From assembly GCF_002741075.1 (NCBI RefSeq), contig NZ_CP016634.1:3688001-3752000 (forward strand): 64,000 nt of DNA. The letters run 5' to 3'. Below the pieces are notes generated by a model. That model worked only from the letters and a program-made list of their open reading frames with translations. It was not told the DNA's origin and did not search any database. Positions 15,944-37,308 of this stretch are shown one piece after another; position 1 is the stretch's first letter, and each line of letters opens with the position of its first letter. The DNA is from Pseudomonas putida. GTDB lineage: Bacteria > Pseudomonadota > Gammaproteobacteria > Pseudomonadales > Pseudomonadaceae. The position numbers were made by a program, and so were the translations under genes.

Positions 15944-15982
15944 TCACCTCAAGAACCCCATGACGCCTGGAGTTGGCACGTC

Positions 15983-16063: not shown

Positions 16064-16093
16064 TCATCGCGAAGGAAATGCACGAGAGGCTTG

Positions 16094-16123: not shown

Positions 16124-16178
16124 TCAATCCGCCCATCCCAGCCCACCGGCTGATGCGTTCAGAGGATCCATAATTTCA

Positions 16179-17111
16179 ATGAAAAGCATCCACGTCATCG
16201 ACTCCCACACCGGTGGTGAACCCACCCGCCTGGTCATGAGCGGCTTCCCTGCCGTCGCTGGCCAGAGCATGAGCCAGAAGCGCGACGCGCTGCGCAACGA
16301 GCATGATCAATGGCGCCGCGCAACCTTGCTCGAACCGCGTGGCAACGACGTGCTGGTCGGCGCCTTGTACTGCGAGCCTGTTTCCGCCGATGCCACCTGC
16401 GGCGTCATCTTCTTCAACAACACCGGTTACCTGGGCATGTGCGGCCACGGCACCATTGGCCTGGTCGCCTCGCTGCATCACTTGGGGATGATCGAGCCAG
16501 GCGAGCACAAGATCGACACTCCGGTCGGCCCGGTAAACGCCACCCTGCATGCCGACGGCGCCGTCACCGTGCGCAACGTGCCGGCCTACCGTTATCGCCA
16601 CGACGTCCCGGTACAAGTGCCTGGCTACGGCGAAGTACGCGGCGACATTGCCTGGGGCGGCAACTGGTTCTTCTTGGTGTCCGACCACGGCCAGGTGCTG
16701 GAACTGGCCAACGTCGAAGCGCTGACTGCCTACACCTGGTCGATTCTCCAGGCGCTGGAAGCCAACGGCATCTTCGGTGAGGACGGCGGCGTGATCGATC
16801 ACGTCGAACTGTTCGCCTCCGACCCGCAGGCCGACAGCCGCAACTTCGTGATGTGCCCAGGCAAGGCCTATGACCGCTCCCCCTGCGGCACCGGCACCAG
16901 CGCCAAGCTCGCGTGCCTGGCCGCCGACGGCAAGCTCGCCCCCGGCCAGACCTGGGTCCAGGCCAGCATCACCGGCAGCCGCTTCGAAGGCCGTTATGAA
17001 CAGGAAGGCGAACGCATCCGTCCTTCCATCACCGGCCGCGCCCATGTCACCGCCGACAGTCAATTGCTGATCGACGAGCAGGACCCCTTCGCCTGGGGCA
17101 TCTGCCAGTAA
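16179..17111 (+). CDS. lhpA: 4-hydroxyproline 2-epimerase
   Basis: A 310-residue member of the proline racemase superfamily. It converts trans-4-hydroxy-L-proline to cis-4-hydroxy-D-proline, the first step of hydroxyproline catabolism, in the cytoplasm. Both catalytic cysteines are present: Cys88 in [12 protein letters not shown] and Cys236 in [12 protein letters not shown]. The numbering equals that of characterised epimerases, which separates it from dehydratases that carry Thr or Ser at one site. The N-terminal [13 protein letters not shown] and C-terminal SITGRAHV are family-typical. It heads the run epimerase, deaminase, semialdehyde dehydrogenase and has two operator boxes upstream. The equivalent gene is called hypRE in some strains. 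Confidence 0.93.
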
Positions 17112-17183
17112 CCACCACACGCGTCGCCCGCGGCGCGTACACCCTTCACGACCGACCTGAATGAATGCTTCAAGGAGCCCACA

Positions 17184-18131
17184 ATGACTGACAATATCTT
17201 CACTGGCTGCATTCCTGCCCTGATGACCCCCTGCACCCCAGACCGCAAGCCAGACTTCGACGCGCTGGTGAAAAAGGGCCGCGAGCTGATCGATATCGGC
17301 ATGAGCGCCGTGGTGTACTGCGGCTCGATGGGGGATTGGCCGCTGCTGACCGAAGCCGAGCGCCAGGAAGGCGTGGCCCGCCTGGTCGCCGCCGGCATCC
17401 CGACCATCGTCGGCACCGGCGCGGTCAACTCCCGTGAAGCCGTCTCCCATGCCGCCCACGCCGCCAAGGTCGGTGCCCACGGCCTGATGGTCATTCCGCG
17501 TGTACTGTCCCGCGGCTCGTCCATCCCGGCCCAGAAGGAACACTTCAAGGCCATCCTCAATGCCGCCCCGAACCTGCCGGCGGTGATCTACAACAGCCCT
17601 CACTACGGCTTCGCCACCCGCGCCGACCTGTTCTTCGAACTGCGCCGCGAACACCCGAACCTGATCGGCTTCAAGGAGTTCGGTGGCGCGGCTGCCATGA
17701 GCTACGCCGCCGAGTTCATCACCTCCAAGGATGAAGAAGTCACCTTGATGGCGGGCGTGGACACCCAGGTCTTCCACGGCTTCGTCAAGTGCAACGCCAC
17801 CGGCGCCATCACCGGCATCGGCAACGCCCTGCCACGCGAAGTGTTGCTGCTGATCAAGCTGTGCAAGGAAGCCGCGGTCGGTGACGCCAAGGCCCGTCGC
17901 CTGGCCCTGGAGCTCGAAGGCGCACTGGCGATCCTGTCGTCCTTCGATGAAGGCGTGGACCTGGTGCTGTACTACAAGCACCTGATGGTCCTGAACGGCG
18001 ACAAGGAATACACCCTGCACTTCAACGAGACCGACGTCCTGAGCGACAGCCAGCGCCGCTACGCGGAAAACCAGTACGCCCAGTTCCGCCGCTGGTACGC
18101 CAGCTGGTCGGTCGAAAACAACCTGGTCTGA
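17184..18131 (+). CDS. lhpC: Delta1-pyrroline-4-hydroxy-2-carboxylate deaminase (DapA family)
   Basis: A 315-residue TIM-barrel enzyme of the dihydrodipicolinate synthase superfamily. The Schiff-base lysine is Lys164 in LIGFKEFGG and the conserved tyrosine is Tyr136 in VIYNSPHYG. In hydroxyproline operons this family deaminates and dehydrates pyrroline-4-hydroxy-2-carboxylate to alpha-ketoglutarate semialdehyde and ammonia. The assignment rests on position between epimerase and semialdehyde dehydrogenase, since sequence alone would give only the superfamily. It is distinct from the biosynthetic dapA at 40033. It starts 72 bases after the epimerase stop; AAGGAG lies upstream of the ATG. Confidence 0.9.
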   Translation: MTDNIFTGCIPALMTPCTPDRKPDFDALVKKGRELIDIGMSAVVYCGSMGDWPLLTEAERQEGVARLVAAGIPTIVGTGAVNSREAVSHAAHAAKVGAHGLMVIPRVLSRGSSIPAQKEHFKAILNAAPNLPAVIYNSPHYGFATRADLFFELRREHPNLIGFKEFGGAAAMSYAAEFITSKDEEVTLMAGVDTQVFHGFVKCNATGAITGIGNALPREVLLLIKLCKEAAVGDAKARRLALELEGALAILSSFDEGVDLVLYYKHLMVLNGDKEYTLHFNETDVLSDSQRRYAENQYAQFRRWYASWSVENNLV

Positions 18132-18155
18132 TCCCGCCCCGCGTCACCTCCCTGA

Positions 18156-18181
18156 GGCGGTGCGCCCCTTGGCGCACCGCC
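18156..18181 (+). terminator. Strong 11-bp hairpin inside the hydroxyproline operon
   Basis: GGCGGTGCGCC, loop CCTT, GGCGCACCGCC forms a perfect 11-bp stem between the deaminase and semialdehyde dehydrogenase genes. A weak pyrimidine run follows. It may attenuate transcription or protect the upstream mRNA end. Confidence 0.65.
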
Positions 18182-18235
18182 CTCCTCTTCCCGCCTGGTG
18201 CGGGAATCTGACTTTCCCGACCTCAGGAGAACCCC

Positions 18236-19813
18236 ATGAGTCTTTCAGGTAACCTGCTGATCGGCCAACGCGCCGTCGCCGGCACCCAAGCCGCGGTCCA
18301 TGCTATCGATCCCGCCACCAACCAGCCGCTCGAACCGGCCTACCATGGCGGCAGCCGTGAGCATGTCGAGCTCGCCTGCAGCCTGGCCTGGGATGCCTTC
18401 GACCGTTATCGCGATACCTCGCTTGAAGCACGTGCCGCGTTCCTCGAGCGCATCGCCCAGAACATCGAAGTCCTCGGCGACACGCTGGTCCAGCGCGCCG
18501 TGGCCGAAAGCGGGCTGCCGCAAGCCCGCATTCAGGGTGAAATCGGTCGCACCTGCTTCCAGTTGCGCACTTTTGCCCGTACCGTCCGTGCCGGCGAATG
18601 GCTGGATGTGCGCGTGGACGAAGCGCTGCCCGAGCGCCAGCCACTGCCGCGTCCGGACTTGCGCCAGCGTCATGTCGCCCTGGGCCCGGTGGCGGTGTTC
18701 GGCGCCAGCAACTTCCCCCTGGCCTTCTCGGTGGCCGGTGGTGATACCGCCTCGGCCTTCGCCGCCGGTTGCCCGGTGATCGTCAAGGCCCACAGCGCCC
18801 ACCCGGGCACCAGCGAACTGGTTGGCCGCGCCATCCAGCAGGCCGTTCAGGATTGCAAGCTGCCCGAGGGGGTGTTCTCGCTGCTGTACGGCTCGGGCAC
18901 CGAAATCGGCATTGGCCTAGTCAACGACCCGCGCATCAAGGCCGTCGGCTTCACCGGCTCGCGCAGTGGTGGCGTTGCCCTGACCCACGCCGCCCAGGCA
19001 CGCCGTGAGCCCATCCCGGTATATGCCGAAATGAGCTCGATCAACCCAGTGTTCCTGTTCGAGTCGGCGCTGGCCAACCGTGGTACCGCGCTCGCCGAAG
19101 GCTTCGTCGCCTCCCTCAACCAGGGCGCCGGCCAATTCTGCACCAACCCTGGCCTGGTGATCTCCGTCAAAGGCCCAGCCCTGGACAACTTCATCGCCAC
19201 CGCCAGCGCCGCCATCGCCAAGAGCCCGACCCAGACCATGCTCACGCCTGGTATCTACAAGGCCTATAGCAATGGTGTCCAAGCCCTGGCAGCCAACGCC
19301 AGCGCACGCCTGCAAGCCAAAGGCGTCGAGAGCGAAGGCCACAACCAATGCCAATCGCACCTGTTCGTGACCACTGCCCACGACTTCATGCGTGACGACG
19401 CTCTGCAGGCCGAGGTATTCGGCTCGTCTTCGCTGATCGTCGAATGCGACGACCTGGCCCAGGCCAGGCAAGTGGCCGAACAGCTCGAAGGCCAGCTCAC
19501 CGCCACCGTGCACATGGACGATGCCGATACCGACGCCGTCGCCACGCTGCTGCCAACGCTGGAGCGCAAGGCCGGACGCATCCTGATCAATGGCTGGCCG
19601 ACCGGCGTGGAAGTGTGCGACGCGATGGTCCACGGCGGCCCGTTCCCGGCCACCTCCGATGCCCGCAGCACCTCGGTGGGCACTGCGGCGATCCTGCGGT
19701 TCCTGCGCCCGGTGTGCTACCAGAACTTCCCGGACAGCCTCCTGCCAACGGCCATCAAGCAGGGCAACCCGCTGAACCTCAGCCGTCTGGTCAATGGCCA
19801 GCGGGTAAGCTGA
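18236..19813 (+). CDS. Alpha-ketoglutarate semialdehyde dehydrogenase
   Basis: A 525-residue aldehyde dehydrogenase. The catalytic cysteine is Cys302 in [12 protein letters not shown], and the general base Glu265 lies in [25 protein letters not shown] forms part of the cofactor site. It oxidises 2,5-dioxopentanoate to alpha-ketoglutarate, the last step of hydroxyproline catabolism. Homologues also serve pentose or glucarate pathways, so the role is assigned by context. It begins after a strong hairpin and ends 95 bases before the GntR gene. AGGAGAACCCC precedes the ATG. Confidence 0.9.
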
Positions 19814-19863
19814 CCGGCAATGGCGCATCCACCTACAGCACGTCGGTGGATGCGCTTTTGCCC

Positions 19864-19882
19864 TTTGCATACAATATGCAAA
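19864..19882. promoter_or_regulatory. Palindromic operator at the GntR gene
   Basis: TTTGCATA-CAA-TATGCAAA is a perfect 8-base inverted repeat with a 3-base spacer. On the minus strand it reads ATTGTATGCAAA, sharing ATTGTAT with the boxes at 16094, 16110 and 20615. Its place 27 bases before the chosen ATG suggests autoregulation. Confidence 0.65.
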
Positions 19883-19908
19883 TTCCAATCGGGTTCTCGA
19901 ACAGTACT

Positions 19909-20568
19909 ATGGCTAGCTTCAAGACACGTGCCCAGCACGTAGCGGACGATCTTCGCAAACGTATCCTCAGCGGTGAGTTCAAAGGCGCCACCCAGTTGCG
20001 TCAGGACGCGCTCGCGCGGGACTACGACGTCAGCCGGATCCCCGTGCGCGAGGCGCTGCTGGCCCTCGAGGCCGAAGGGCTGGTGCAGTTCCACCCGCAC
20101 CGGGGCGCATTCACCACCGAGCTCTCCACCGCCACCATTCGCGAGCTGTTCGACCTGCGCGTACTGCTCGAATGCAGGGCCCTGGAGCAAGCCATCCCGA
20201 AACTGACGCCAAGCGAACTCGACCGAGCAGAGCGCCTGCTGGACCAATACGATGCCGCACTGGATTCCGGCAGCGACATCGACAACTGGAGTGAGCTGAA
20301 CTTCGCCTTCCACACTGCCTTGTATTCGCCGGCCCAGCTGCCGGAAACCCTGGCGATGATCACGCACCTCAATACCAAGTGCGATCGCTACATCCGCATG
20401 CAACTGCTCTACACGCGGGAAATCCAGAAAGCCGAAAAAGAGCACCGCGAACTGCTGGAACATGCCCGCAACAAAGACATCGAGGCGGCCTGCCGTCTGC
20501 TGGATCGCCACATCCGCGAAGCCTGCGAGGGCATCGTCGCGGTCCTGGAAAACAGTCTGAACCACTGA
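19909..20568 (+). CDS. GntR-family regulator, FCD type
   Basis: A 219-residue regulator. The winged helix is seen at residues about 8-70 (VADDLRKRILSGEFKGATQL, DYDVSRIPVREALLALEAEG), followed by an all-helical FCD ligand domain with the metal-site histidines in FHTALYS, EHRELLEHA and DRHIREAC. It lies inside the hydroxyproline cluster and probably represses it until an intermediate binds. The start at 19909 gives the normal family N-terminus; an in-frame ATG at 19876 falls within the operator palindrome and is less likely. No clear ribosome-binding site precedes either. Confidence 0.88.
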   Translation: MASFKTRAQHVADDLRKRILSGEFKGATQLRQDALARDYDVSRIPVREALLALEAEGLVQFHPHRGAFTTELSTATIRELFDLRVLLECRALEQAIPKLTPSELDRAERLLDQYDAALDSGSDIDNWSELNFAFHTALYSPAQLPETLAMITHLNTKCDRYIRMQLLYTREIQKAEKEHRELLEHARNKDIEAACRLLDRHIREACEGIVAVLENSLNH

Positions 20569-20614
20569 CCCCTTGCCCTGAGCGTCTGCGCCAGGGCGCG
20601 GTCTGAACACAATA

Positions 20615-20630
20615 ATTGTATAAAATCTAC
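20615..20630. promoter_or_regulatory. GntR-type operator box before the dehydrogenase gene
   Basis: ATTGTATAAAATCTAC is identical over 16 bases to 16094-16109 upstream of the epimerase gene. It lies 20 bases before the ATG at 20651 and separates this gene's control from read-through of the GntR gene. Confidence 0.72.
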
Positions 20631-20650
20631 GATCATCGAGGTTTGAGCAG

Positions 20651-21934
20651 ATGCTTTCAGACGAACTTCACCGTAACGGTCACGATGTCTATGACATCGC
20701 CGTGGTCGGCGCCGGCATCGTAGGCGCGGCCTGCGCCCTGGCCCTCTCGCGCCAGGGCCATCGGGTGCTGGTGCTCGACCGGGATGAGCCAGGCCAAGGC
20801 GCATCGTTCGGCAACGCCGGCCACCTGGCCACCGAACAGGTCTTCCCCATCGCCGACGTGTCCATTCTCAAACGCCTGCCGGCCATGCTGATGGACCCGA
20901 TGGGCCCCCTGCGCCTGGATTGGCGTTACCTGCCCAGGGCCCTGCCCTGGTTCACACGCTTGCTGCTGAACCTGCGTCAACGCCCCTACCGCAACAGCGT
21001 CGCAGCCCTGCGCGCCCTCAACGAAGCGAGCCTGGATGCCTGGCGGCGTCTGCTGGCCTCCACCGGCAATACGCAGTTGCTCAAGGAAGATGGCTCCCTG
21101 CTGGTGTTCGAGCGTCCCGAGTCGCGCACTGCCATCGATGCGCTCAAGCAGAAGATGCAGGCCCAGGGCGTGCCCGTCGATTTCTGGGACGCCAATGCCG
21201 TACGACATGCGGCGCCGCAATTGTCCGAATCGATCCAGGGCGCACTGTTCTTCCCCGCGACCGGTCATTTCATCGACCCCCACGTGGTGGTGAACGCCTT
21301 GGTAAAAGCGGCCCAGGACGGCGGCGTTCATTTCGCCCGTCAACGCGTCGACGGGGGACGCGTGCATCAGGACGGCGTCGTGCTACGAACCGACCATGGC
21401 GAGGTCAATGCGCGAAAGGTGCTGATCGCCTGCGGTGCCCACTCCGCCAAGCTCACCCAGCAACTGACCGGCAAGCGCGTACCGCTGGACACCGAACGCG
21501 GCTATCACCTGATGCTGCCCAACGAGCACGACCGCCTGCCCTTGGCTGTCACCTCGCTGGAGCGTCGTTTCATCATGACGCCCATGCAAGGCGGCCTGCG
21601 CCTGGCCGGCACCGTGGAGTTCGCAGGGCTCGATCGGGCGCCGAACATGCAGCGGGCCTGGCAGTTGCATCGACTGACCCAGGGGCTGTTCAAGAAAGCA
21701 CTGAACATCGATGCGGCGAGCACCTGGATGGGCTTTCGTCCTTCCCTGCCCGACTCGCTGCCGGTGATCGACCAAGCCTGCGGCGGCAAAGTCTTGCTCG
21801 CCTTCGGTCACCAGCACCTGGGGCTCACCCAGGCGGCGACCACTGCCGAACTGGTCGCCTCCATGACCGGATCGGTGCCCACTGGGGCTGGGCATTTGCC
21901 TGCGCTTGCGCCTTACCGTTTGGATCGGTTCTGA
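20651..21934 (+). CDS. FAD-dependent D-hydroxyproline dehydrogenase/oxidase
   Basis: A 427-residue DAO-family flavoprotein. The N-terminal Rossmann motif is VVGAGIVGAACALALSRQG, followed by QGASFGNAGHLATEQ and the C-terminal FGHQHLGLTQAATTAELV. In putida-type hydroxyproline clusters a single enzyme of this kind oxidises cis-4-hydroxy-D-proline to pyrroline-4-hydroxy-2-carboxylate, the substrate of the deaminase at 17184. P. aeruginosa uses a multi-subunit enzyme instead. The function is inferred from context and family; no transmembrane helix is visible, so a peripheral or soluble enzyme is expected. Confidence 0.87.
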   Translation: MLSDELHRNGHDVYDIAVVGAGIVGAACALALSRQGHRVLVLDRDEPGQGASFGNAGHLATEQVFPIADVSILKRLPAMLMDPMGPLRLDWRYLPRALPWFTRLLLNLRQRPYRNSVAALRALNEASLDAWRRLLASTGNTQLLKEDGSLLVFERPESRTAIDALKQKMQAQGVPVDFWDANAVRHAAPQLSESIQGALFFPATGHFIDPHVVVNALVKAAQDGGVHFARQRVDGGRVHQDGVVLRTDHGEVNARKVLIACGAHSAKLTQQLTGKRVPLDTERGYHLMLPNEHDRLPLAVTSLERRFIMTPMQGGLRLAGTVEFAGLDRAPNMQRAWQLHRLTQGLFKKALNIDAASTWMGFRPSLPDSLPVIDQACGGKVLLAFGHQHLGLTQAATTAELVASMTGSVPTGAGHLPALAPYRLDRF

Positions 21935-21939
21935 AGTCG

Positions 21940-21958
21940 GGGGCTGCTTTGCAGCCCC
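21940..21958. terminator. Bidirectional hairpin between convergent genes
   Basis: GGGGCTGCTTTGCAGCCCC forms an 8-bp stem in the 30-base gap between the dehydrogenase and MFS stop codons. There is no strong T run on either strand. Confidence 0.6.
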
Positions 21959-21964
21959 AGCGTC

Positions 21965-23326
21965 TCAGCGTTTGGCCAACTCCTCATCCACCGCCCGCAG
22001 CGACTTGCCTCGGGTCTCACGGGTCGCCGCCACCGCGACGATCGAGATCAACGCAGCCCCCACCAGGTACCAGGCAATCGGCGTCGAGCTGTTGTATTCC
22101 TTGAGCAAGGTGACCGCGATCAGCGGCGCCAACGACCCCGCCAGGATCGGCGCCACCTGATAGCACAGCGACAAAGCCGTGTAGCGAACATGGGTCGGGA
22201 ACAACTCCGCCATCAGCGCCGAGTAAGGCGCGTAGGTCATGGACTCGATGGCCAGGCCCAGGGTGATCGCGGCCATGATCAGCCACTCATTGCCGGTGTC
22301 CATCATCGGGAAGCCAACGAAGCCCCAGAATCCGGTCAGCACCGCCCCGATCAGGTACACCGGCTTGCGCCCGATGATGTCCGAGAGGTACCCCATCGCC
22401 GGAATCATGAAGAAGTGCAGCAGGTGCGCACCGAACATCAACAGCAGGATCTGCGAGGTGTCCTTGTGCACCACGAGCTTGAGGTAGGTGATGGAGAAGG
22501 TCACCACGGTGTAATAAAGGATGTTCTCGGCAAAGCGCGCACCGATGCCGATCAACACTGCGCGCCAGTGCTTGGTCAGTACCTCGACAACTCCGAGCTG
22601 GGCCTGCGCGACATGTTGCTGGCGGGCCTGGGCCTCCTTGAAGATCGGCGCATCATCCACCCGCTTGCGGATCCAGTAGCCGATCAGCACCACCACGGCG
22701 GAGAACCAGAACGCCACACGCCACCCCCACTCGAGGAACTGCGCCTCCGAGAGGCTCGAGGACAGGATCAGCAGGATGACCGTGGCAATCAGGTTACCGG
22801 CCGGAACGCCTGCCTGGGGCCAACTGGCCCAGTAGCCCCGACGGTTGTCCGGGCTGTGCTCGGACACCAGCAACACCGCCCCACCCCATTCGCCACCGAA
22901 AGCAAAGCCCTGGATCAGCCGCAGCAGCACCAGCAGCACCGGTGCGGCATAGCCAATCTTTTCGAAGGTGGGCAAGCAGCCCATCAGGAAGGTCGTGATG
23001 CCCACCACCACCAGGCTGATCTGCAGCAAGTGTTTGCGCCCCAGCTTGTCGCCGTAGTGGCCGAACACCAAGCCACCGATGGGCCGCGCCAGAAAGCCCA
23101 CGGCATACAGGGCGAAGGCCGCGATGATGCCATCCATCGCGCTGCCGGTCTGACGGAAGAACAACTGGCCAAAGACCAGGGCCGAGGCCGTGCCATAAAG
23201 GAAGAATTCGTACCACTCCGCCACAGCGCCGGCCATGGCGGCGGCCACTACGCGTTTGATACCGGCGGGCGCATGGTCCGCCGTACGGTCAAGCGTTTTG
23301 GATGCCACAGAGGTCGTAGAGGTCAT
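21965..23326 (-). CDS. MFS transporter, MHS type, probable hydroxyproline/proline porter
   Basis: A 453-residue protein with twelve hydrophobic helices. MHS signatures are [35 protein letters not shown] and [18 protein letters not shown]. The start at 23326 has GGAG upstream; an in-frame extension to 23470 reads through the operator region and is rejected. The gene converges on the dehydrogenase gene and shares a TCGTATACGA-type box with the neighbouring GntR gene. Uptake of hydroxyproline or a betaine is plausible from context. Confidence 0.85.
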
Positions 23327-23412
23327 CGATGTTCCGCTCCGTTGATCGTTCGTGCTCGGCGTCCGGCCCCAGCTGCCTGGGGATGGAGCACCCATTTTTG
23401 TTATATCGTATT

Positions 23413-23422
23413 TCGTATACGA
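23413..23422. promoter_or_regulatory. Palindromic operator of the MFS gene
   Basis: TCGTATACGA is a perfect palindrome 87 bases upstream of the MFS start, within the AT-rich stretch ATCGTATTTCGTATACGATT. A near copy (TCTTATACGA) lies at 24312 before the GntR gene at 23612-24298. Confidence 0.65.
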
Positions 23423-23611
23423 TTTTATCCGAGCAAGAATGAGGCCAGCGTTTCGCCCTGCTCCAGGCAAAGCGGCGCAGGTCGCGCGTTTAAAGGGCTA
23501 TGAGGTAAAACGGAAGATGCCCCATAGGGCCGGACTGGCCCGGGGGACTGTTACGGGAGGAAGCAACGCGGAAAGCGATGCCACAGAAAGGATCACCTGC
23601 CAGTGGGTTGC

Positions 23612-24298
23612 TCAGCGATGAGGCAAGTGCTCGTAGAGGCTCTGGCAGACGCCGTTGATGTGCGCTTCGATCAACTGCGCGGCCAGATCAGCATCGCGAT
23701 TCCGGCAGGCGGCGACGATGTCCCGGTGTTCGTGATCGGCGCGCTCCTTCCCGGCAGACAGACTCATCTGCATCCGCAGGTAACGTTCGACCTTGTCGTG
23801 GATCGAGCGGATCAAGCCCACCAGAAACGGTCTCTGCGCGGGCTCGTAAAGACACGCATGCAGCGCCCAGTTGAGTTCGGCCCAGCGGCCGATGTCATCC
23901 TCACCAATGAACTCGGCGCAGATCCCTTCCGCTTTCTGGAACGTCTCTTCGGTCATGTTCGGTACCGCCAGGCGGATGGCCTTGACCTCCAGCAGCACAC
24001 GCACCTCGAACATCTGCGCCAGCTCAGGCTCGGAAATCTTGGTCACCAAGGCGCCCCGGTTGCGGTGAAAATCCACCAGCCCTTCCGCCTCCAGCCGCTT
24101 GAGCGCTTCGCGCACTGGGATCTTGCTGACGTTGAACGCTTGGGCGATGTCGTCCTGACGCACCGGCTCGCCCTCGGCCAGATGCCCGGAAATGATCGCT
24201 TCGCGCAGGTGCTCGGCGATGATTTCGGAGGTCGAGGGCGTGACACCCAGATTGGGAGCTTTGCGGGGCAGGATCGGCACGGCGGCATCCAGAAGCAA
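23612..24298 (-). CDS. GntR-family regulator, FCD type (second)
   Basis: A 228-residue regulator with winged helix (EHLREAIISGHLAEGEPVRQ, AFNVSKIPVREALKRLEAEG) and FCD domain (ELNWALHACLYEP, DHEHRDIVAA, EAHINGVCQSL). It shares the SKIPVREAL recognition helix with the first GntR protein, which has SRIPVREAL. The frame opens with TTG at 24298; GTG seven codons in is an alternative, so the exact start is uncertain. It lies behind the MFS gene on the same strand and the shared box suggests it controls itself and that transporter. Confidence 0.85.
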   Translation of the reverse strand: MLLDAAVPILPRKAPNLGVTPSTSEIIAEHLREAIISGHLAEGEPVRQDDIAQAFNVSKIPVREALKRLEAEGLVDFHRNRGALVTKISEPELAQMFEVRVLLEVKAIRLAVPNMTEETFQKAEGICAEFIGEDDIGRWAELNWALHACLYEPAQRPFLVGLIRSIHDKVERYLRMQMSLSAGKERADHEHRDIVAACRNRDADLAAQLIEAHINGVCQSLYEHLPHR

Positions 24299-24311
24299 TA
24301 CGGTGTGGATA

Positions 24312-24321
24312 TCTTATACGA
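24312..24321. promoter_or_regulatory. Operator-like box of the second GntR gene
   Basis: TCTTATACGA differs by one base from the palindrome at 23413-23422. It lies 14 bases upstream of the regulator start, in a position to overlap its promoter. Confidence 0.6.
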
Positions 24322-24374
24322 TACGCGGCACGACCGGCGCCAACCCCGTGCTGCCCGCGCGTCCATTCAATGCA

Positions 24375-24404
24375 AAGCCCCTGAGGTACGCGCTTCAGGG
24401 GCTT
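24375..24404 (-). terminator. Terminator after the exoprotein-chemoreceptor fusion gene
   Basis: AAGCCCCTGA and TCAGGGGCTT form a 10-bp stem with a 10-base loop, 37 bases beyond the stop codon at 24441. The T run is short on both strands. Confidence 0.65.
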
Positions 24405-24440
24405 GATTCAACGACGACGCAGCGCCGAGTCACCCACAGG

Positions 24441-26939
24441 TCAAAGCTTGAATTTGCCCACCAGCAACTGCAACTCGCCGCCCAATTGCGCCAGTTTGAC
24501 GCTGGAAGCGGCAGTTTCCTCGCTGGCCGCTGCCGTCTGCTCGGACACTTCCCGCACATTGAGCACGCTGCGGTTGATTTCCTCGGCCACGGCGCTCTGT
24601 TGCTCCGAGGCCGTGGCGATCTGCAGGTTCATCGATTCGATGGTCGCCACCGAACGGCTGATGTTCAGCAGCGAGGTGCCGGCCCGGCGGGTCAACTCGA
24701 CACTGTTGCTGGTCAACGCGCGGCTGCGCTCAAGGATGTCACCGACCTGCTGCGTGCCACGGTGCAAGCCACTGATCAACTCTTCGATCTCTTCGGTGGA
24801 GCTCTGGGTGCGCTGTGCCAGGCTGCGCACCTCATCGGCCACCACCGCGAAGCCGCGACCGGCCTCCCCCGCCCGCGCCGCTTCGATGGCGGCGTTCAAG
24901 GCCAGCAGGTTGGTCTGCTGGGCGACCGACTTGATCACATCCAGCACCGTGCCGATCTTGTCGCTTTCTCGCTTGAGCCCGGCCATCGCCTCTGTCGAAT
25001 GCCCCACCTCGACGTCCAGATGGGTGATCTGCTCGATGGCCTGATTCACCACCGTATCGCTTTCCCGCGCTTCATGGCCTGCGTTGACCGCCGCATTGGA
25101 AGCCTCCTCGGCACTGCGCGCGACATCCTGCACGGTCGAGGCCATCTGGTTCATGGCGGTGGCGACCTGGTCCGTCTCGACCTTCTGGCTGCTCACCCCC
25201 GCGCTGGTCTGCTCGGTGACCGCCGACAGTTCTTCAGCGGCACTGGCGATCTGCACCACGCCGTCGCGCAGCCCGCCGATCAGGTCGCGCAGGTTCACTG
25301 TCATGCGCTGCATACTGGCCTGCAACTCGCCCAGTTCATCACGTCGGGACACCGAAACGTCCTGGCTCAAATCACCATTGGCCACCCGCTCGGCGCTTTG
25401 CAGCGCGTCTTTCAACGGCAGCACGATCAACCGTGTAACGGCTTGCCTCAACTCGGTCGCCAGCGCTTCGTTGGCACCAGCGGCAATGGCGCCACTGGCG
25501 AAGTCCTTGCCCGCGGCCTCGGCCACCAGCCCGCCTACCAGCGCGTGCGCCGCAATCTTCGGCGCACTGCCATTTTCCAGGTGCAGATTACCCACGGCAT
25601 TGAACGCAGCGGCGGCTAGCGTGTTGTACAGCGAGTCCTTTAACGCGCTACCGAAACTTCCTCCCTGTCCCAATGCTTGGCTCAACGCCGTGCTGGTGAT
25701 GTTTTGCAGCGCCTGATTCACCTGCAGGCTGCGGCTGGCCACCACACTGGCGCTGTTGCGCAGATTCTGCGCCGTCAGCGTTACATCGCCCTGGGTGTTA
25801 CGACTGTTGTCTGCATTGACCCCGGCCTCGACGATACCGCTGTTAATGAGCTGCGCGCCGCTGAGCTGGACATGCCGCCCGGCTGCCACGCTCTGGTTGT
25901 TGCTCAATTGGCCGCGAGCGTTCAGCTCAGCGGTACCGGCCGCATACGCAGGGCCATCGAGGGTGACCTGCTGAGCCTTGGCGCGCAGATCGCCTGCGGC
26001 GCTGACCTGAGCCATGCGCAATTGCCCATTGGCGTCCAGCTGGATATCGCCACCGCTGGCGATCAGCTTGCCATCGAGTTTTACACCCACCCCAGCTTCT
26101 GTACCCACCAGCTTGATCGACCCGGCGTACATGCCGCCGAGCGCTGAAGAGTCGATGGCCAGCTCTGGTTTGGCGGTGCCGTTGTCAGTGCGAGCAGTGG
26201 CGGCCAGTGTGCGGGCGTCGACATCGTTGCGCCCGGTGACGATGGTCAGGTCGCGAGCCTGGATCCGGGCGTTGATCTTCGCGCTGCGGGTGATGATCTC
26301 GAAGCTATCGACGTTGCTGGCATTGAGCCCCGCCCCTTCGATGATGACCTGGCCTTGGTCGACCTGGTGACGGGTCAACTGGCCATTCTCGATCACCGGT
26401 CGCCCCGTGCTCAGCGTGGCCCGCGGCGTGTTGATGAAGCCGCAACCGTCACAGGTGATGCCGTGGGGGTTGGCGACGATGACGTGTGCCCGTTGCCCTG
26501 CCACTTCGGTGTAGCCGCGCAACTGGCTGGGGTTGGTACCGTTGACTTCGTTGAGGATGGTAGTGGCGGCGCTGCCCTTCAGATTGGGGTTGCCGAGGAC
26601 GATGCCACCCAACTGAGTCGCCTGGGTCCGCCCGGTGGCATTGTTGAGGATGACGCCCTGCTTACCGACGTTGTAATCACTGAAGCGGTTGTGCGATAGC
26701 CCACTGCCGTTGGGCGCGGCGATGTTGACGATCGGTACGCCGTTGCCCGCCCGATCAAGGCTCGTCCCCGGCGCACTGACCACGATACCTTCACCCGCCT
26801 GGGCCCATAACGGCTGCCAGAAGATGGCATTGGCCAATAAGAAGGCCAAGCCACGCTTGGGCAATCCGCAAAAGCGCTCACGGGGTTGAATGGCGGCCGA
26901 GCGTTGGCGGGCCAGGAAGGCGAATAGGCGAACGTCCAT
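24441..26939 (-). CDS. Chimeric protein: two-partner-secretion exoprotein fused to chemoreceptor signalling domain
   Basis: An uninterrupted 832-residue frame made of two unrelated halves. Residues 1-48 are a long signal peptide ending in WAQA. Residues about 50-290 are the TPS secretion domain of filamentous haemagglutinins ([38 protein letters not shown]). About 290-405 are haemagglutinin repeats. About 408-493 match the far C-terminal region of large TpsA/CdiA proteins ([25 protein letters not shown]). From about 503 the sequence is HAMP ([19 protein letters not shown]) and then a full MCP signalling domain with the tip [20 protein letters not shown]. No membrane helix precedes the HAMP part. 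An exported N-terminus and a cytoplasmic signalling domain are incompatible, so this is most likely a deletion fusion or an assembly collapse. Confidence 0.85.
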
Positions 26940-26961
26940 GTGTGCTCTCGTGAATCAGGTG

Positions 26962-28665
26962 TCAGATGAAAAGGTCCAGGCGCAAATACACCGGGTGTTC
27001 CTTGTCGGGCAGCGCATCGGGCTGCTCCAGGCTGCGGGCGAAGGTCACGCTGGCCGCGAGGTGCTCGCCCCGGGCGAACAATTCCAGCGAGTGGCTGCTG
27101 GCACGCCCATGGAAGTCGCCGTTGTAGCGGTCATTGCGGATCACACCCAAGTCGTAACCCAGACCCATGCCGTACTCGGCGACGATCGGCCGCAAAGAGG
27201 GCCAGGTGACCGGTCGACTCCAGCGCAGATCGTTGCGCCAGTAACCACCGCTGTCGCCGGACAGCGACTGGTCCTTGAACCCCCGAATCGAAGCCAGGCC
27301 ACCGAGGCTGATGCGTTGCGGGCTGAACAGCACATCCTCGCTGCGCTGGCCATTGGCCAGGCTACTGAAGCTCAGGCGCTCGCCAAGCAGCTCGAAGCCT
27401 TGGATGAAGCTGAGGGTCGCGCTGTATTTGCGATAACGCGCAACCGGCTCGCCGGGCCGCGGATGACCATTGTCCTGGGCATCGAAAGCACCGATGCCCT
27501 GCTGAATACCGAGATCGAGGTTCACGAAAGCCCTACCCAGGCGCCGGCCATGGTTGATGCCGAACTGCGCATCGCTGAGGCGATTGCTGCTAGCGTCCAG
27601 ACGGGTATCTTCGATGTAGTTGTTGGTACGCAGGTGGGCGATCCCGACGTTCAAAGCGGTCTTGCTGACTGCGTCACGGTGTACCACGCGCTCAGCGCGC
27701 AGTTGGTGGTTTTGGTTGTCACCGGTTTGCTTGAAGGCAAAGCTGTTAGCCCGTGCTGTTGAGCGGTATTCGCTTTCGCTGTAGCTGTAGCTGAAGTTCC
27801 ACCACCCCCACGGCAGGTTGTAGTACAGCACGCGGTTGTTCGACCCTTGCGTGTGGTCGCTGACCACATCATGGCCCCCACGCAGCACCAGTTGGTCGGC
27901 CAGGCCAAGCGGACTGTCCCATTCAAACCCCATATTGGCTTGCTGCTCGCCCGTGCTGCGTTGGCCTTCGTTGTTGCGCGACAGCGAGGCACGCCAAGGC
28001 TTTTGCGGAGTATTGCGCACCAGCGCCCGGCTACCGCCGACCGCTTCGCCTGGGGTCAGTTCCATCTTCGCCTGGTTCGACGGCAAGCGATTGAGCTGAT
28101 CGATCATCTGCTCGATCTCACGCAGATTGAGCAACTGGCCCGTCGAACCAGGGAAGGCCATGGCCAGCTCACGTTCGGACAGGCCACTGCTGTCGTCGGG
28201 GCGAAAACCTTCCAGACGCCCTTCCACGACTATCACTTGCAAATGGCCGGACGACAGGTCCTGCTGGGGCAAGTAGGCGCGGCTGGTCACCAAGCCGCGC
28301 GCCAAGTACAGGTCGGTGATGGCTTTGAGCAAAGCGTTGAGGTCGGACACGTCCAGGCATTGGCCGATGAAAGGCTTGAGCAGTGCCTGACGGTTACTGG
28401 CCGACAGGCTGTCAGCGCCTTTGAGTTCGATGGTGCTGATGTCGAAGCAGCGCACGTCTTCCGGCCGCTCGGAGGATGCGGGCTGGGCAGCCTTACCAGG
28501 CAAAGAACGCAGCTCCTCGAGTCGACGCTGTTGCTCTTCGAGCAGGCGGTTCTGCCGCTCGCGGATCAGGTCCTGGTCACCTGGCGAAGCCCAGGCCGAA
28601 CCGACAAGATTGCTGAACACAACACACAAGGCAAACCCTTGCGCAGTAACCTGACCGCTCCTCAT
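26962..28665 (-). CDS. TpsB outer-membrane transporter (ShlB/FhaC/HecB family)
   Basis: A 567-residue protein with a signal peptide, a short helix (LLEEQQRRLEELRSLPGK), two POTRA domains (about 75-215, including LYLARGLVTSRAYLPQQDL) and a 16-strand barrel. The barrel loop L6 motif is seen as IRGF in SLGGLASIRGFKDQSLSG, and the last strand ends LRLDLFI. TpsB proteins translocate the partner TpsA exoprotein across the outer membrane. The gene is 22 bases ahead of the truncated partner, the normal tpsBA order. The transporter itself looks intact. Confidence 0.92.
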   Translation of the reverse strand: MRSGQVTAQGFALCVVFSNLVGSAWASPGDQDLIRERQNRLLEEQQRRLEELRSLPGKAAQPASSERPEDVRCFDISTIELKGADSLSASNRQALLKPFIGQCLDVSDLNALLKAITDLYLARGLVTSRAYLPQQDLSSGHLQVIVVEGRLEGFRPDDSSGLSERELAMAFPGSTGQLLNLREIEQMIDQLNRLPSNQAKMELTPGEAVGGSRALVRNTPQKPWRASLSRNNEGQRSTGEQQANMGFEWDSPLGLADQLVLRGGHDVVSDHTQGSNNRVLYYNLPWGWWNFSYSYSESEYRSTARANSFAFKQTGDNQNHQLRAERVVHRDAVSKTALNVGIAHLRTNNYIEDTRLDASSNRLSDAQFGINHGRRLGRAFVNLDLGIQQGIGAFDAQDNGHPRPGEPVARYRKYSATLSFIQGFELLGERLSFSSLANGQRSEDVLFSPQRISLGGLASIRGFKDQSLSGDSGGYWRNDLRWSRPVTWPSLRPIVAEYGMGLGYDLGVIRNDRYNGDFHGRASSHSLELFARGEHLAASVTFARSLEQPDALPDKEHPVYLRLDLFI

Positions 28666-28865
28666 TGACGCTTCCCTGAGTCATGAAAATCGGGGCGTGA
28701 TGCTATTTTTAAATCTTGCCCAGGGGCATCAGACGATTCCCTAATCCGAGCGGCGGTAATTACCTGCGTTGAAGGAATAGGTATTGAGGGAAACTAGTGG
28801 CATACCGCCGACTGAAAGAGGGGGGCTGAATCTGAAGGTTACCCAGAACTGGGCACCGAAATGCA

Positions 28866-28901: not shown

Positions 28902-28922
28902 TGTATGGCGGAGAGATAGGGA
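28902..28922. repeat. Left attachment site of the genomic island
   Basis: TGTATGGCGGAGAGATAGGG plus A is identical over 21 bases to 37215-37235, which spans the 3' end of tRNA-Ser(CGA). This copy is the leftover end of the tRNA gene created by integration. Confidence 0.9.
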
Positions 28923-28982
28923 CACTCAGCCAGATGAAAGAAAACCCGGCAAACCCAAGTAAAAATTGACACACAGACAAAA

Positions 28983-29005
28983 AGTAGTACAAATGAGTAG
29001 TACAA
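28983..29005. repeat. Integrase arm-type repeats, left end
   Basis: AGTAGTACAA occurs at 28983-28992 and 28996-29005, a 13-base period, between the attachment core and the integrase start. The same pair with the same spacing is found at the right end (37144-37166). A TTGACA at 28966 with a weak -10 falls over these repeats, so integrase may repress its own gene. Confidence 0.75.
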
Positions 29006-29030
29006 ATCAGATCTGAATCTCGGCGGTATC

Positions 29031-30524
29031 GTGGCGGACTTCATCTTCAGAAAACGGGACGAATCGACTTGGTATGTGCGCTTGGCCGTACCTGTAGACG
29101 TTCAAAAGATCATTGGAAAAAAGGTGTTCGTTCAGTCACTGAAGACTGCGTCCCGCCCTGAGGCTATCCATGCCAGTCATGCACATTTGGCGCTATGGCG
29201 GAACCAAATCCGAGGCGCACGAAAGGCGAAGGAAGCTCCTGATGGATGGCAGGAATCTATCGTTGCTGCCACGACCGAAGTCGAGACATTGATCCAAAGC
29301 CGAAAGCGCGCGGCAATTGGCGAAGTGGTGCCTGCTATGTCAGTCACAGATTCAGATGTTCAGGCGTTCAGACAGGCTAATCCAGACATCGTGACCCTGA
29401 TTGAAAAGTGGGAGGATACCCAACCGGGAAACGACATCGCGGGCGATTTGCGTTTGCAAGATACCCTGCAAGCTGGGTTCAAAGCCATGCTTGAACGTTC
29501 GTTCCGTGCGAAGCACAGCTTGACCGTGGAGCAACAACAGGAATTGGTATCCCTGATCGAGTCTCCGACCAGCTACCAAAAAAAATCTCCGCTGACCACA
29601 GCAAGACTGCTGTCATTTCGGGCTTACAGACTTGACAAGAAAATCGCCGAGAAAACAGTGGATCAACAAGAATCCAAGTTGCGAAAACTTTCGGAGTATC
29701 TAACGACTAATCAAGCCCCTCTGGATACTGATACGGTGGCGGATTGGTTAAAATCACTTGAATTATCAAGTAAAACCCTGACCCAATATCTGTTGGCAGG
29801 CAGCGTATTTTGGAAATGGGCAAATCGTTATGATGAACGCTGGCGAGCCGATTACAAAGGTCGAGTAAACCCATTCGAAAACCATGATTTGCCCAAAGTA
29901 CGAGCTAAAGACAGGGCTGCCAGCAAACGGAAAGACTACAGCCTTGAAGATCTAGAAGTATTGTACGATGCGGCCCAAAAGCGGGGGCTGCACGTTTTGG
30001 CGGACTTGATTCTCTTGGGTTTTTACACGGGCGCTCGTATAGAAGAACTATGCCAGTTGACTACTAATAATGTTGTAACCCAAGAAAAAATTCTATGCTT
30101 TGACTTCCCTGATAGCAAAACCTACGCAGGCATTCGATATGTCCCAGTACATCCTGCACTCAAACCAATTGTAAAACGACTACAAAGAGACTCAGTTGAT
30201 GACTACTTGATACACTCGACGAGTCGTAACAAGTATAAAAACCGGTCAGATCCTCTTTCAAAGGCATTCGGTCGCCTCAAGACAGCCCATGGATTTGGCA
30301 AGCAGCACGTTTTCCATAGCTTCCGGGGAACTGTAGTCACACAACTGCAGAGAGCCAATGTGCCTGGACCACTGATCGCACAGATCGTCGGGCATGAAAC
30401 GGGCACCGTGACATATGATGTGTACAGCCAAGGGGCAAGCCCACTGCAAAAGCTCAAAGCAATTTCCAAATTGCCACGACTGAAACCACCGGCCAAGACC
30501 GACACTACGCCCCCAGTCACCTGA
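29031..30524 (+). CDS. Tyrosine site-specific integrase
   Basis: A 497-residue integrase starting at GTG. The N-terminal part (RKRDESTWYVRLAVPVDVQK) resembles the DUF6538 domain of island integrases, the middle holds a SAM-like core-binding domain (about 210-290), and the catalytic domain has Arg336 (TGARIEELCQL), Lys363, His429 and Arg432 (HSFRG), His455 (VGHET) and nucleophile Tyr465. All catalytic residues are present, so the enzyme is probably active. It reads inward from the left attachment site, the usual layout for tRNA-targeting islands. Confidence 0.93.
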   Translation: MADFIFRKRDESTWYVRLAVPVDVQKIIGKKVFVQSLKTASRPEAIHASHAHLALWRNQIRGARKAKEAPDGWQESIVAATTEVETLIQSRKRAAIGEVVPAMSVTDSDVQAFRQANPDIVTLIEKWEDTQPGNDIAGDLRLQDTLQAGFKAMLERSFRAKHSLTVEQQQELVSLIESPTSYQKKSPLTTARLLSFRAYRLDKKIAEKTVDQQESKLRKLSEYLTTNQAPLDTDTVADWLKSLELSSKTLTQYLLAGSVFWKWANRYDERWRADYKGRVNPFENHDLPKVRAKDRAASKRKDYSLEDLEVLYDAAQKRGLHVLADLILLGFYTGARIEELCQLTTNNVVTQEKILCFDFPDSKTYAGIRYVPVHPALKPIVKRLQRDSVDDYLIHSTSRNKYKNRSDPLSKAFGRLKTAHGFGKQHVFHSFRGTVVTQLQRANVPGPLIAQIVGHETGTVTYDVYSQGASPLQKLKAISKLPRLKPPAKTDTTPPVT

Positions 30525-30649
30525 TGAGCCGAACAGCCAAGCCCTTGTTACCCGCTCCCTAACAAGAGAATCAGGTACATGTACCTACTAGTCGCTACCG
30601 GTGATATATGGAACCACCTGAATTTCCCCCCTAGCCCAGGTGGGGGGGG

Positions 30650-31267
30650 TTAAGCCCCACGCTTGATCCGGTAGACCGTGGCAACTCCGACGTCTGCAAG
30701 TTTGGCAATGTCATTCGCAGACATATTTGGGTGCTTTTCAATTAGCATCTGGACCTTTGTCCATTTTTCCACATTTCTTCCCTTACCCTTTGGCGTCCAG
30801 CTTGGGTCCGCAAGGCGTTTGTTTTCCAAGCCTTGTCTAATCCGTTCAACCCGCTTTTCCTGATCAAGGCGAGCCATCGTTGCCATGAGGTCCAACAGCA
30901 TGCTGTTGATCACGTCCATGATCTGACCTGTCATCCCCTTGTCTTCAATCTGCATGTGACTTGTAGGTAAATCTGCGATCACCAATCGTAAGCCCTTTGC
31001 TTTGATCTTGGCCTTCAGTGTTTCCCAATCCGACTGGGACAAGCGGCTTAAACGGTCAACGCTTTCACACACGATGCACTCACCAGTCTGCGCTTCATCC
31101 AGCATCCGCATTAGTTCAGGCCGATCTAACGTTGTGCCACTGATGTTTTCCGAATACACGCCAGCGACAAGAAGACCTTTCTCGGCTACGAATGCTTCCA
31201 GGCTAGCTTTGGCCCTTAATGCGTCTTGGTCTTTGGTGCTGGCCCGGAGGTACAGGTGTGATTTCAA
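30650..31267 (-). CDS. Serine recombinase (resolvase/invertase family)
   Basis: A 205-residue protein. The catalytic serine is Ser10 in LYLRASTKDQDA, with the family segments YSENISGTTLDRPEL, VCESVDRLSR and a long helix (LLDLMATMARLDQEKRVERI) before a C-terminal helix-turn-helix (MSANDIAKLADVGVATVYRI). Members resolve cointegrates or invert DNA. It is convergent with the integrase gene. Three TGATAG repeats lie just upstream and could be its sites. It appears complete. Confidence 0.9.
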   Translation of the reverse strand: MKSHLYLRASTKDQDALRAKASLEAFVAEKGLLVAGVYSENISGTTLDRPELMRMLDEAQTGECIVCESVDRLSRLSQSDWETLKAKIKAKGLRLVIADLPTSHMQIEDKGMTGQIMDVINSMLLDLMATMARLDQEKRVERIRQGLENKRLADPSWTPKGKGRNVEKWTKVQMLIEKHPNMSANDIAKLADVGVATVYRIKRGA

Positions 31268-31440
31268 TTTTATTATCCTTTATACTTAAATTTGATAGAC
31301 CTATGATAATTCGATCATATGGCTATTTTCAATAGGTTTCTGATAGACCAAAGCGAAGGGCCGCCGGACTACTAAAGAAGTAGACTTCTCTGATAGTTCT
31401 TAAATGGTGCTGGTTACGTATTCCTTACAACCCTAAAACA

Positions 31441-31464
31441 AAAGCCCCGCGATGCGGGGCTTTT
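31441..31464 (-). terminator. Terminator after the ImmA/IrrE gene
   Basis: AAAGCCCCGC-GAT-GCGGGGCTTT is a perfect 10-bp stem touching the stop codon at 31465, with an AT run on the minus strand side. Confidence 0.8.
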
Positions 31465-32598
31465 TTACTTGACCAATTTGAGCCCTGAGCGAGGTGTCAA
31501 ATTGGTAGGCTTCTGTATGTCCAAGCCAGTCGGTAGAACCTCTGCCAGAAATTCTGGTGTGATACCGAGTTGTTCCGCTAGGGCTTCATGTGTGATGCCG
31601 TGATGTTCGTATAACACCTTCAGAGCTGTTTTGATCATTTCAGGTTGTTCACGGACACAAAACGGGTCTTCCTTCTCAGTTATTCCTTCACCCTGATTCT
31701 TCAAGTAAATCACGGCACCCCGGTACTGATAGTCATCTATGAGACCCAGCGCTTTCGCACGGTAGATTATCGCTGCCTTGCTTACCTGGAAGTCCATTTT
31801 CATTTTGCTAATACCAACCCAGTCCAGTCTACTTCCTCGTCGAGGAAAAGCTTTCAAGAATGTTGATCTTGGTATCAGAAATGCTGATGCAAAACGGTTG
31901 GCTTCGGACTCTGTTTTGCGATCACCGGTGACTTGTCCTTCATGTAGTACTAAATGACCAAGTTCGTGAGCGATGTCGAATCGTAACCGAAACGGGCTCT
32001 GCTTTGCTTCATTCCTTACAATGACAGGTCTACGAGAGGTGATTGAAAGCGCATCAACCTCTGTTGAAGTGTCTTGAAAAAGCGTCACAACCGCACCGGC
32101 ACGCTCTACAACTCTAACCATATGAGAGATTGGTCCAAAACCCAATCCCCAGTATGAACGTAACCGCTCAGCCGCTTGTTCAATTTCTTCAGTCGTTTCA
32201 GCTCCTGATTCGTCTGGGAAGTCCACAGCTGGCAAACGTACCTTGGTATCGATGAACTCTACAAGCTGATCAAATACGGTACCTCGTGCTAAAACCTTCT
32301 GCTTCATGCTGGCCTTTGTTGTTGCCAGCTTACGGAAGTGAGCTTGTTCTTCAGATAGAGAAACTCCGACGGGCTTAAAGAAAAACGTCGGGGCTACATG
32401 AAGCGACCGCGCCAGGTCTTTGATAGTCGGGTCGTCAAGCTTTAGCTTTCCTTTCCCATTCTCTAGCTGTGACACATATTGGCGCGTCGTACCTATATCT
32501 TCAGCGATGTCGTTTAGGGTTTTTCCCCAGTAATGGCGGGCCAGGCGTAGCTGACTACCCTTAAACACCCCGTCCATTTCTATCAACGGCTTCATCAT
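31465..32598 (-). CDS. XRE-type HTH and ImmA/IrrE metallopeptidase
   Basis: A 377-residue two-domain protein. Residues about 10-75 are an XRE helix-turn-helix (TLNDIAEDIGTTRQYVSQLE). Residues about 150-260 are a zinc peptidase of the ImmA/IrrE type, with HELGH at 211-215 and the third ligand in EANRFASAFLIP. Such proteins cleave repressors or antitoxins and control mobile elements. ATG at 32598 has AAGGTAAAG upstream. It overlaps the preceding gene by 38 bases, which points to coupled translation. The C-terminal 80 residues (HHGITHEALAEQLGITPEFL) look like another HTH-like unit. The target is probably an island or phage regulator; this is inferred. Confidence 0.9.
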   Translation of the reverse strand: MMKPLIEMDGVFKGSQLRLARHYWGKTLNDIAEDIGTTRQYVSQLENGKGKLKLDDPTIKDLARSLHVAPTFFFKPVGVSLSEEQAHFRKLATTKASMKQKVLARGTVFDQLVEFIDTKVRLPAVDFPDESGAETTEEIEQAAERLRSYWGLGFGPISHMVRVVERAGAVVTLFQDTSTEVDALSITSRRPVIVRNEAKQSPFRLRFDIAHELGHLVLHEGQVTGDRKTESEANRFASAFLIPRSTFLKAFPRRGSRLDWVGISKMKMDFQVSKAAIIYRAKALGLIDDYQYRGAVIYLKNQGEGITEKEDPFCVREQPEMIKTALKVLYEHHGITHEALAEQLGITPEFLAEVLPTGLDIQKPTNLTPRSGLKLVK

Positions 32599-33196
32599 CT
32601 TTACCTTCGGCCGTATCTTCGTCTATCGGAGATAGTTCAATTGGTTCAAGTTCCGCTGCGGCAGGAATTTCATCATCCACAGCGACGAGGGTCCTAACGC
32701 GTTCTGCGTTGTAACGCCATTCCGCCACTAAAGTGCCATCATGCTCAGCATGAGCTTCATACCCGACGAAATAGATTTGGTGATCATCTTCCTCCGTCAA
32801 TGCACGCTCGATAATAAACCGCCACAAGTATTCGGAATGGGCATCTTCTTCGAACAACTGCAATTGCCTTGCTTCGGAGCTCGTAGGATTCAGCACGCGC
32901 ATTTTCTTGGGATTTTCGTGATCGTCAAGGAAAAAACGCACAGTTTCGCTGCCAATGCCCAGCAGCAGGTCATTTCCGGAATGCTTGATCGTCAACCATG
33001 GGTGCTCATTCGAGCGTGCAAGCTGGACTAGCGCGTTTTTAATTCTGGCCCAAGACAGCGTGCCACGGCTGTAGGAACAGTCGAGATCAGTGCTGGCGGT
33101 GCGAAGGGCGTCATCTAGGACATCGAGTATTCGCTTGGCGATGATGCTAAGACGGCTAGACGTCAAGCTCGAAGAGATTTCGGATGGTTTGTTCAT
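32561..33196 (-). CDS. Hypothetical partner of the ImmA/IrrE protein
   Basis: A 211-residue protein I do not recognise. It has a helical N-terminus (IAKRILDVLDDALRTAST), a central mixed region (WLTIKHSGNDLLLGIGSETV, HQIYFVGYEAHAEHDGTLVA) and a very acidic tail (EDTAEGKDDEAVDR). No signal peptide or membrane helix is seen. Its 3' end overlaps the peptidase gene by 38 bases, so the two form a translationally coupled pair. By analogy with repressor-protease and toxin-antitoxin-like pairs it may be the peptidase substrate or a controlled toxin. This is inference from layout. Confidence 0.7.
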   Translation of the reverse strand: MNKPSEISSSLTSSRLSIIAKRILDVLDDALRTASTDLDCSYSRGTLSWARIKNALVQLARSNEHPWLTIKHSGNDLLLGIGSETVRFFLDDHENPKKMRVLNPTSSEARQLQLFEEDAHSEYLWRFIIERALTEEDDHQIYFVGYEAHAEHDGTLVAEWRYNAERVRTLVAVDDEIPAAAELEPIELSPIDEDTAEGKDDEAVDRNGRGV

Positions 33197-33376
33197 GGGT
33201 CCGCCTGACTGTTCCCTTCATGTGATTTGTAAACCATAATTGTGCCAAACCAAAAATTTGTCAAGCAAGCGCGCTCCCAACCACGAGATTTCGCTATCTG
33301 TTCGAATTTGGTGCTATTTACGCCTAATCTTGGCGTTTTCACCACCGCATCCGATCAGAGCTTCTGGCTCGCGAAC

Positions 33377-37209: not shown

Positions 37210-37218
37210 CATCTTGTA

Positions 37219-37308
37219 TGGCGGAGAGATAGGGATTTGAACCCTAGGTACCCGCGAAGGTACAACGGATTTCGAATCCGTCCCGTTCGACCACTCCGGC
37301 ATCTCTCC
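37219..37308 (-). tRNA. tRNA-Ser(CGA)
   Basis: On the minus strand the gene starts GGAGAGATGCCGGAGTGGTC and ends ATCTCTCC-G-CCA, so the 7-8 bp acceptor stem closes. The anticodon stem-loop is ACGGA-TTCGAAA-TCCGT, giving anticodon CGA, and the long variable arm and T-arm GGGTTCAAATCCC are typical for serine. CCA is encoded. Its last 17 bases are part of the island attachment core. Confidence 0.93.

Follow-up and report, generated by a model that had tools for sequence, protein, structure and literature searches.

The 832-amino-acid open reading frame described here is probably a recent fusion formed by illegitimate deletion and most likely the relic of a broken gene pair, in which a truncated gene for a two-partner secretion exoprotein (tpsA/cdiA) runs in frame into a truncated gene for an HBM-type chemoreceptor (mcp). 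It lies in a 64,000-nt stretch of the Pseudomonas putida genome (assembly GCF_002741075.1, contig NZ_CP016634.1, positions 3,688,001-3,752,000 of the forward strand), referred to as the window. Chimaeric ORFs arising from illegitimate (short-homology) deletion are a known kind, and the fusion is a neat case of it. Like others of this kind, it has a few shared bases at its joins (two and four), lost DNA that is not found elsewhere, and parents in the same orientation; unlike them, it carries two joins within a single ORF, each of which keeps the frame. Intact relatives of both parents make each breakpoint readable to within a few bases. The locus may thus provide a snapshot of how a contact-toxin locus situated next to a tRNA that serves as insertion site is disarmed, dragging a resident gene along, and it holds a warning for annotation, in that the labels "filamentous haemagglutinin" and "MCP" fall on one probably dead ORF.

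Architecture of the fusion ORF

The frame and its three pieces, as delimited by the ORF list, Pfam searches and DNA comparisons with intact relatives (a viral-database contig, L191, for the exoprotein pieces), are as follows:

24441..26939, minus strand: fusion ORF, truncated tpsA/cdiA plus truncated HBM-type mcp, 832 aa (ORF list, Pfam, L191)
25717..26939, minus strand: TpsA N-terminal piece with the TPS domain, fusion nt 1-1223 (Pfam, L191)
25427..25718, minus strand: second piece of this exoprotein, with the DUF637 pretoxin domain, 292 nt, fusion nt 1222-1513 (Pfam, L191)
24441..25430, minus strand: HAMP and MCP signalling domains of an HBM chemoreceptor, fusion nt 1510-2499 (Pfam, DNA comparison)

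The ORF starts with an ATG at 26939 and is read on the minus strand to 24441, the plus strand across this interval being interrupted by stops. Four Pfam domains follow one another with scores far above chance: TPS (PF05860, residues 61-308, E 2.7e-57), DUF637 (residues 369-487, E 3.6e-14), HAMP (PF00672, residues 501-552, E 1.3e-14) and MCPsignal (PF00015, residues 615-798, E 2e-43). Because the front of the DUF637 match overlaps the TPS piece, the real start of the DUF637 piece is residue 408. Among the NCBIfam models, the N-terminal domain of filamentous haemagglutinins scores above its cut-off, and several chemoreceptor models match without any of them reaching its curated cut-off, a pattern to be expected when a receptor is devoid of its sensor half. 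An earlier, sequence-only reading had described a single 832-codon frame joining both modules, which is indeed present; its modular join is real, but the exoprotein part ends at about residue 504 rather than 493.

The same reading had remarked on the lack of a membrane helix and of the central haemagglutinin repeats, and both observations hold. On a 19-residue hydropathy scale, no stretch of the fusion exceeds 1.09, whereas in the intact receptor P0001 the two membrane helices score 2.84 and 2.65. No haemagglutinin repeat family matched the ORF in the Pfam search, and the fusion contains 2085 codons fewer than the intact tpsA of L191. With regard to a cleavable Sec signal peptide, residues 23-41 of the long N-terminus form a hydrophobic stretch. 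After the partial DUF637 pretoxin, the frame passes into receptor sequence, without a C-terminal toxin. An internal restart for the receptor part was considered and set aside, as the candidate sites, start codons at fusion codons 472 and 530 with five of six bases resembling a ribosome-binding site, are too weak to argue from.

Intact relatives of both parents and the position of the breakpoints

The exoprotein parent belongs to the CdiA/TpsA family, in which, as reported in PMC4725963, the DUF637 domain of Pseudomonas CdiA precedes a variable toxin tip. The fusion resembles these proteins in its TPS and DUF637 domains and the adjacent intact tpsB/cdiB gene. A scan of viral contigs with the exoprotein fragment P0042 returned a single contig, IMGVR_UViG_2554235231_000001 (IMG/VR; L191), and a TpsB query returned the same one. 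It contains the 3' remnant of a tRNA-Ser, tpsB, a tpsA gene of 2950 codons and further ORFs up to the contig end, 1.4 kb past tpsA; it thus provides a near-identical intact relative of the exoprotein part. ARAGORN found no whole tRNA on L191. When the whole record was searched with the stretch from the tRNA to purC, the tRNA end matched and purC did not; L191 is therefore assigned to a common position by its tRNA remnant and the adjacent tpsB. Identity to L191 amounts to 94.7% for window positions 25717-28708 and 97.9% (nucleotides) for 25427-25718 against L191 11609-11900. The TpsA N-terminal piece is 96.8% identical in amino acids to intact L191 TpsA over residues 1-407, with differences at 13 of 406 codons in the TPS piece. 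The DUF637 part is matched by exoprotein fragments among the best 120 of the 5312 hits of a protein search (see below), by P0042 at 99% and by P0053 at 94%. Unlike CdiA/TpsA exoproteins, the fusion lacks the 2085 codons of the repeats and maturation region as well as the whole toxin tip, and its tail is a receptor signalling domain.

The partner gene lies directly upstream of the fusion:

26962..28665, minus strand: tpsB, CdiB-like outer-membrane transporter, intact, 567 aa (Pfam POTRA_2, POTRA_3, ShlB)

As stated in the earlier reading, this TpsB is intact. Its gene has 93.1% of bases equal to L191 tpsB, whose frame contains the final stop only, and the proteins agree at 536 of 568 positions, stop included. 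No sigma-70-like promoter was detected 5' of tpsB between 28600 and 29040. In L191, the small ORF that follows tpsA may, judging by its position, be an immunity gene. On the 3' side of the intact tpsA, the beginning of DUF637 recurs as a short isolated copy (L191 13663-13746), resembling an orphan toxin-tip module.

The receptor part stems from a gene of the McpS/McpQ-like, HBM-containing type, whose members sense organic acids, as reported in PMC5126104; like these receptors, the fusion has a HAMP domain and an MCP signalling part, and unlike them it has lost both membrane helices and the HBM sensor. The closest intact receptor among the best 120 of 5312 matches, P0001, carries its HBM sensor at residues 39-176, and the receptor part of the fusion is 99% identical to it across P0001 residues 195-527 only. 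The four best-matching intact receptors, 516-527 aa in length, share 96-98% identity with the HAMP/MCP part where they align within residues 330-620.

Of the 473 loci confirmed in a scan of named genomes with P0003, the copy of another species, 80 were retained, and the top one belongs to P. guariconensis LMG 27394 (L050). There, purC and a tRNA-Ser are followed in turn by an integrative element of 7 kb, an intact mcp, a GntR gene and an MFS gene. The receptor part shares 95.3% nucleotide identity with this mcp, and the window aligns to LMG 27394 on both sides (14437-25436 and 37217-40094). The regulator gene following the fusion serves as an anchor for this synteny:

23612..24298, minus strand: GntR/FCD regulator, which also follows mcp in LMG 27394 (Pfam, LMG 27394 comparison)

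In P. sichuanensis (L055), an intact mcp lies about 0.5 kb downstream of a 92%-identical tRNA-Ser, with purC beyond, and is not followed by a GntR gene. An IS-like stretch located 5' of the intact LMG 27394 mcp (L050 9400-9585) has five 95% copies in the genome that contains the window.

Comparison with these relatives places the two joins as follows:

25717..25718, minus strand: J1, in-frame loss of 6255 bp within tpsA, parents sharing AA (vs L191)
25427..25430, minus strand: J2, tpsA pretoxin joined to mcp (vs L050, L185 and L191)

The two regions suspected previously, 25400-25480 and 25680-25740, each contain one of them. At J1, fusion nt 1-1223 track L191 tpsA, and from nt 1222 the sequence tracks L191 6255 bp further on, a loss of 2085 codons and thus a multiple of three. 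At J2, the match to tpsA stops at fusion nt 1513 and the match to the LMG 27394 mcp begins at nt 1510; the parents share TTGA in the comparison with LMG 27394 and TGA in that with genome G385 (L185). This join falls just past the second membrane helix of mcp, so that the first 198 mcp codons are lost. The second loss also removed the toxin tip of tpsA and, if the strain resembled L191, may have extended over no less than the 2.5 kb present past the join in L191. In 100,000 simulations, random joins had at least two shared bases in 18% and at least four in 2% of cases. J1 therefore requires no homology, and its 2-bp overlap is no evidence of microhomology; at J2, the overlap only hints at it. 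There is no long repeat at either breakpoint: in a search extending 500 bp around each pair of partners, exact matches reached 10 bp at most, and this one was out of register.

Origin and fate of the fusion

We suggest that a CDI-type tpsB-tpsA pair was once flanked by the tRNA-Ser insertion site on one side and by a resident gene for an HBM-type chemoreceptor on the other, with all genes pointing the same way. Two losses would then have followed, either as separate illegitimate deletions requiring hardly any homology or within a single complex event that jumped twice. One would have taken the tpsA repeat and maturation region (6255 bp), the other the toxin tip, what came after it and the sensor half of mcp, with the frame kept by chance in both. 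The idea of two deletions, already put forward in the sequence-only reading, gains support from the direct comparison with intact relatives of both parents. That reading also placed a chemoreceptor gene downstream of tpsA; synteny suggests such an order in this strain before the deletion, but no intact pair has emerged. Of the 86 loci searched by tblastn for the ancestral order (L050-L129, L184-L186 and L189-L191), 83 contain a receptor, and the flanks examined contained a tps gene in none of these 83. Many of the 83 receptors are only 55-70% relatives, so that truly orthologous loci are thinly sampled. A receptor is missing from L189 and L191, the two loci in which tpsBA is present, and a receptor scan of viral contigs found no relative. 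The genus-wide searches each covered 398 sampled genomes, a sample of the genus. The relatives thus provide a full tpsA (L191) and a separate chemoreceptor gene (LMG 27394, P. sichuanensis), each adjoining a similar tRNA-Ser sequence in some relative, but never both in one contig.

Other carriers were sought by comparing fusion residues 330-620 (291 residues) with 5.8 billion proteins, with 7996 candidates scored and 5312 matches obtained. Among the best 120 of these, receptor relatives reach 98%, no protein spans both parts (maximal coverage of the junction region, 42%), and none has only one of the two joins. The exact J2 20-mer is absent from the viral contigs searched, and a literature search aimed at such a TpsA-chemoreceptor fusion found nothing on point. 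Two other origins were considered and rejected: a chimaera with a paralogue, given that the best long genomic match of the signalling part is 75% at the DNA level (83% for a shorter one) and 59-61% at the protein level, and a phage or plasmid origin of the fusion, with no phage match and nine plasmid records matching over 75-180 bases at 78-88%.

Long and repetitive as tpsA genes are, one might suspect that the genome has a full tpsA and a full mcp, joined by the assembler or by a chimaeric read. We consider such an artefact, raised earlier as an assembly collapse, improbable: it would require two joins, both in frame, between sequences with only two and four bases in common, and the lost parts have no close match elsewhere in an assembly of two contigs that is 100% complete. 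The 6.25-kb tpsA middle from L191 gave no match in the assembly (an empty answer without positive control), whereas the L191 pieces flanking it do match the window, and P0042 matches the assembly at the fusion only. The 2.5 kb after the join in L191 match only as a 36-base stretch of the fusion itself, a weak result because toxin tips vary among strains. The 5' part of mcp gave three short matches (35-50 bases) to other receptors, and other receptors in the assembly match P0001 at 61% or less. With no long repeat at the breakpoints and no close match for the lost parts, a repeat collapse would have had no substrate. Within the deletion scenario, it is possible, if somewhat doubtful, that both joins arose together in a single complex event, for instance by template switching during replication that involved two jumps. 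The lack of long homology at either join and of single-join proteins among the best 120 of 5312 matches speaks for it, but the sequence does not separate one event from two, and an intermediate may be unsampled.

The fusion product is still predicted to be exported by way of Sec and TpsB, and a signalling rod that has left the cell's interior is out of reach of CheA. Because the product lacks repeats, toxin, sensor and membrane anchor, its HAMP and signalling domains would be unable to act as a receptor once outside the cytoplasm. The fusion probably has no function. It is nonetheless conceivable that the ORF encodes a functional new protein, secreted or cytoplasmic, whose HAMP-MCP rod influences CheA arrays or serves as a coiled coil at the cell surface. 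In favour of this idea, all 832 codons are open and both joins are in frame, which would occur by chance in about 1 of 9 cases and mildly favours a frame-keeping constraint; in addition, the receptor part differs from LMG 27394 by 42 synonymous and only 3 amino acid changes in 328 codons (dN/dS 0.021). However, this low divergence resembles that of the neighbouring genes (GntR, dN/dS 0.007; MFS, 0.026), as expected of a recent event, suggesting that little time has passed since the fusion. Relative to L191, dN/dS is 0.209 for the TPS part, 0.065, on few changes, for the DUF637 part and 0.115 for intact TpsB. The receptor part shows no relaxed constraint; the TPS value, somewhat above that of TpsB, rests on 15 changes without an intact-to-intact control, and single sequence pairs have no power to test selection. 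The divergence fits a young event and proves neither function nor decay. Since the product lacks a membrane helix and a sensor, and the best 120 of 5312 matches include no further carrier, we regard a functional protein as very improbable. Still less credence is due to the notion of a novel type of secreted protein, in which a stub exported by TpsB bears a chemoreceptor HAMP-signalling rod and is kept for its benefit; if true, the retained stub could, for example, provide a coiled coil at the surface, or part of it could stay in the cytoplasm and bias the chemotaxis array. The earlier suggestion of gene birth is accordingly not borne out, a recent, probably non-functional relic without a second carrier among these 120 matches accounting for the observations. 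The relic reading predicts that one HBM-type receptor is lost in this strain, a loss that may be tolerable because the genome retains related receptors (59 and 61% identity, open frames of 535 and 662 aa).

The tRNA-Ser island

An 8.3-kb integrative island (28902-37235) occupies the tRNA-Ser(CGA), with its integrase at the end away from the tRNA; the order from the tRNA-Ser is island, tpsB, fusion:

37401-38111: purC, beyond the tRNA-Ser (locus comparison)
37215..37308, minus strand: tRNA-Ser(CGA) (37219-37308) with the 21-bp attachment repeat at 37215-37235 (alignment, repeat search)
29031..30524, plus strand: tyrosine integrase of the island, DUF6538 and Phage_integrase (Pfam)
28902..28922, plus strand: 21-bp copy of the tRNA-Ser 3' end, the island's far attachment site, just upstream of tpsB (repeat)

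The island also contains an RmrA/RmrT-like pair at 31465-33196 (PADLOC RmrA, E 2e-146; RmrT, 1.5e-57), composed of a gene with HTH and IrrE-type peptidase domains and a partner without a Pfam family. Three adjoining genes at 35276-36980 have mSLOG-DUF4326, DUF488 and dual-OB domains, the latter two matching the PADLOC candidate defence families PDC-M45C and PDC-M45A. At 33421-33900, the 3' part of a gene with a YagK/YfjJ_C domain carries a tandem repeat spaced at 96 bp, in which consecutive copies of 192 nt resemble the first at 97, 93 and 71%.
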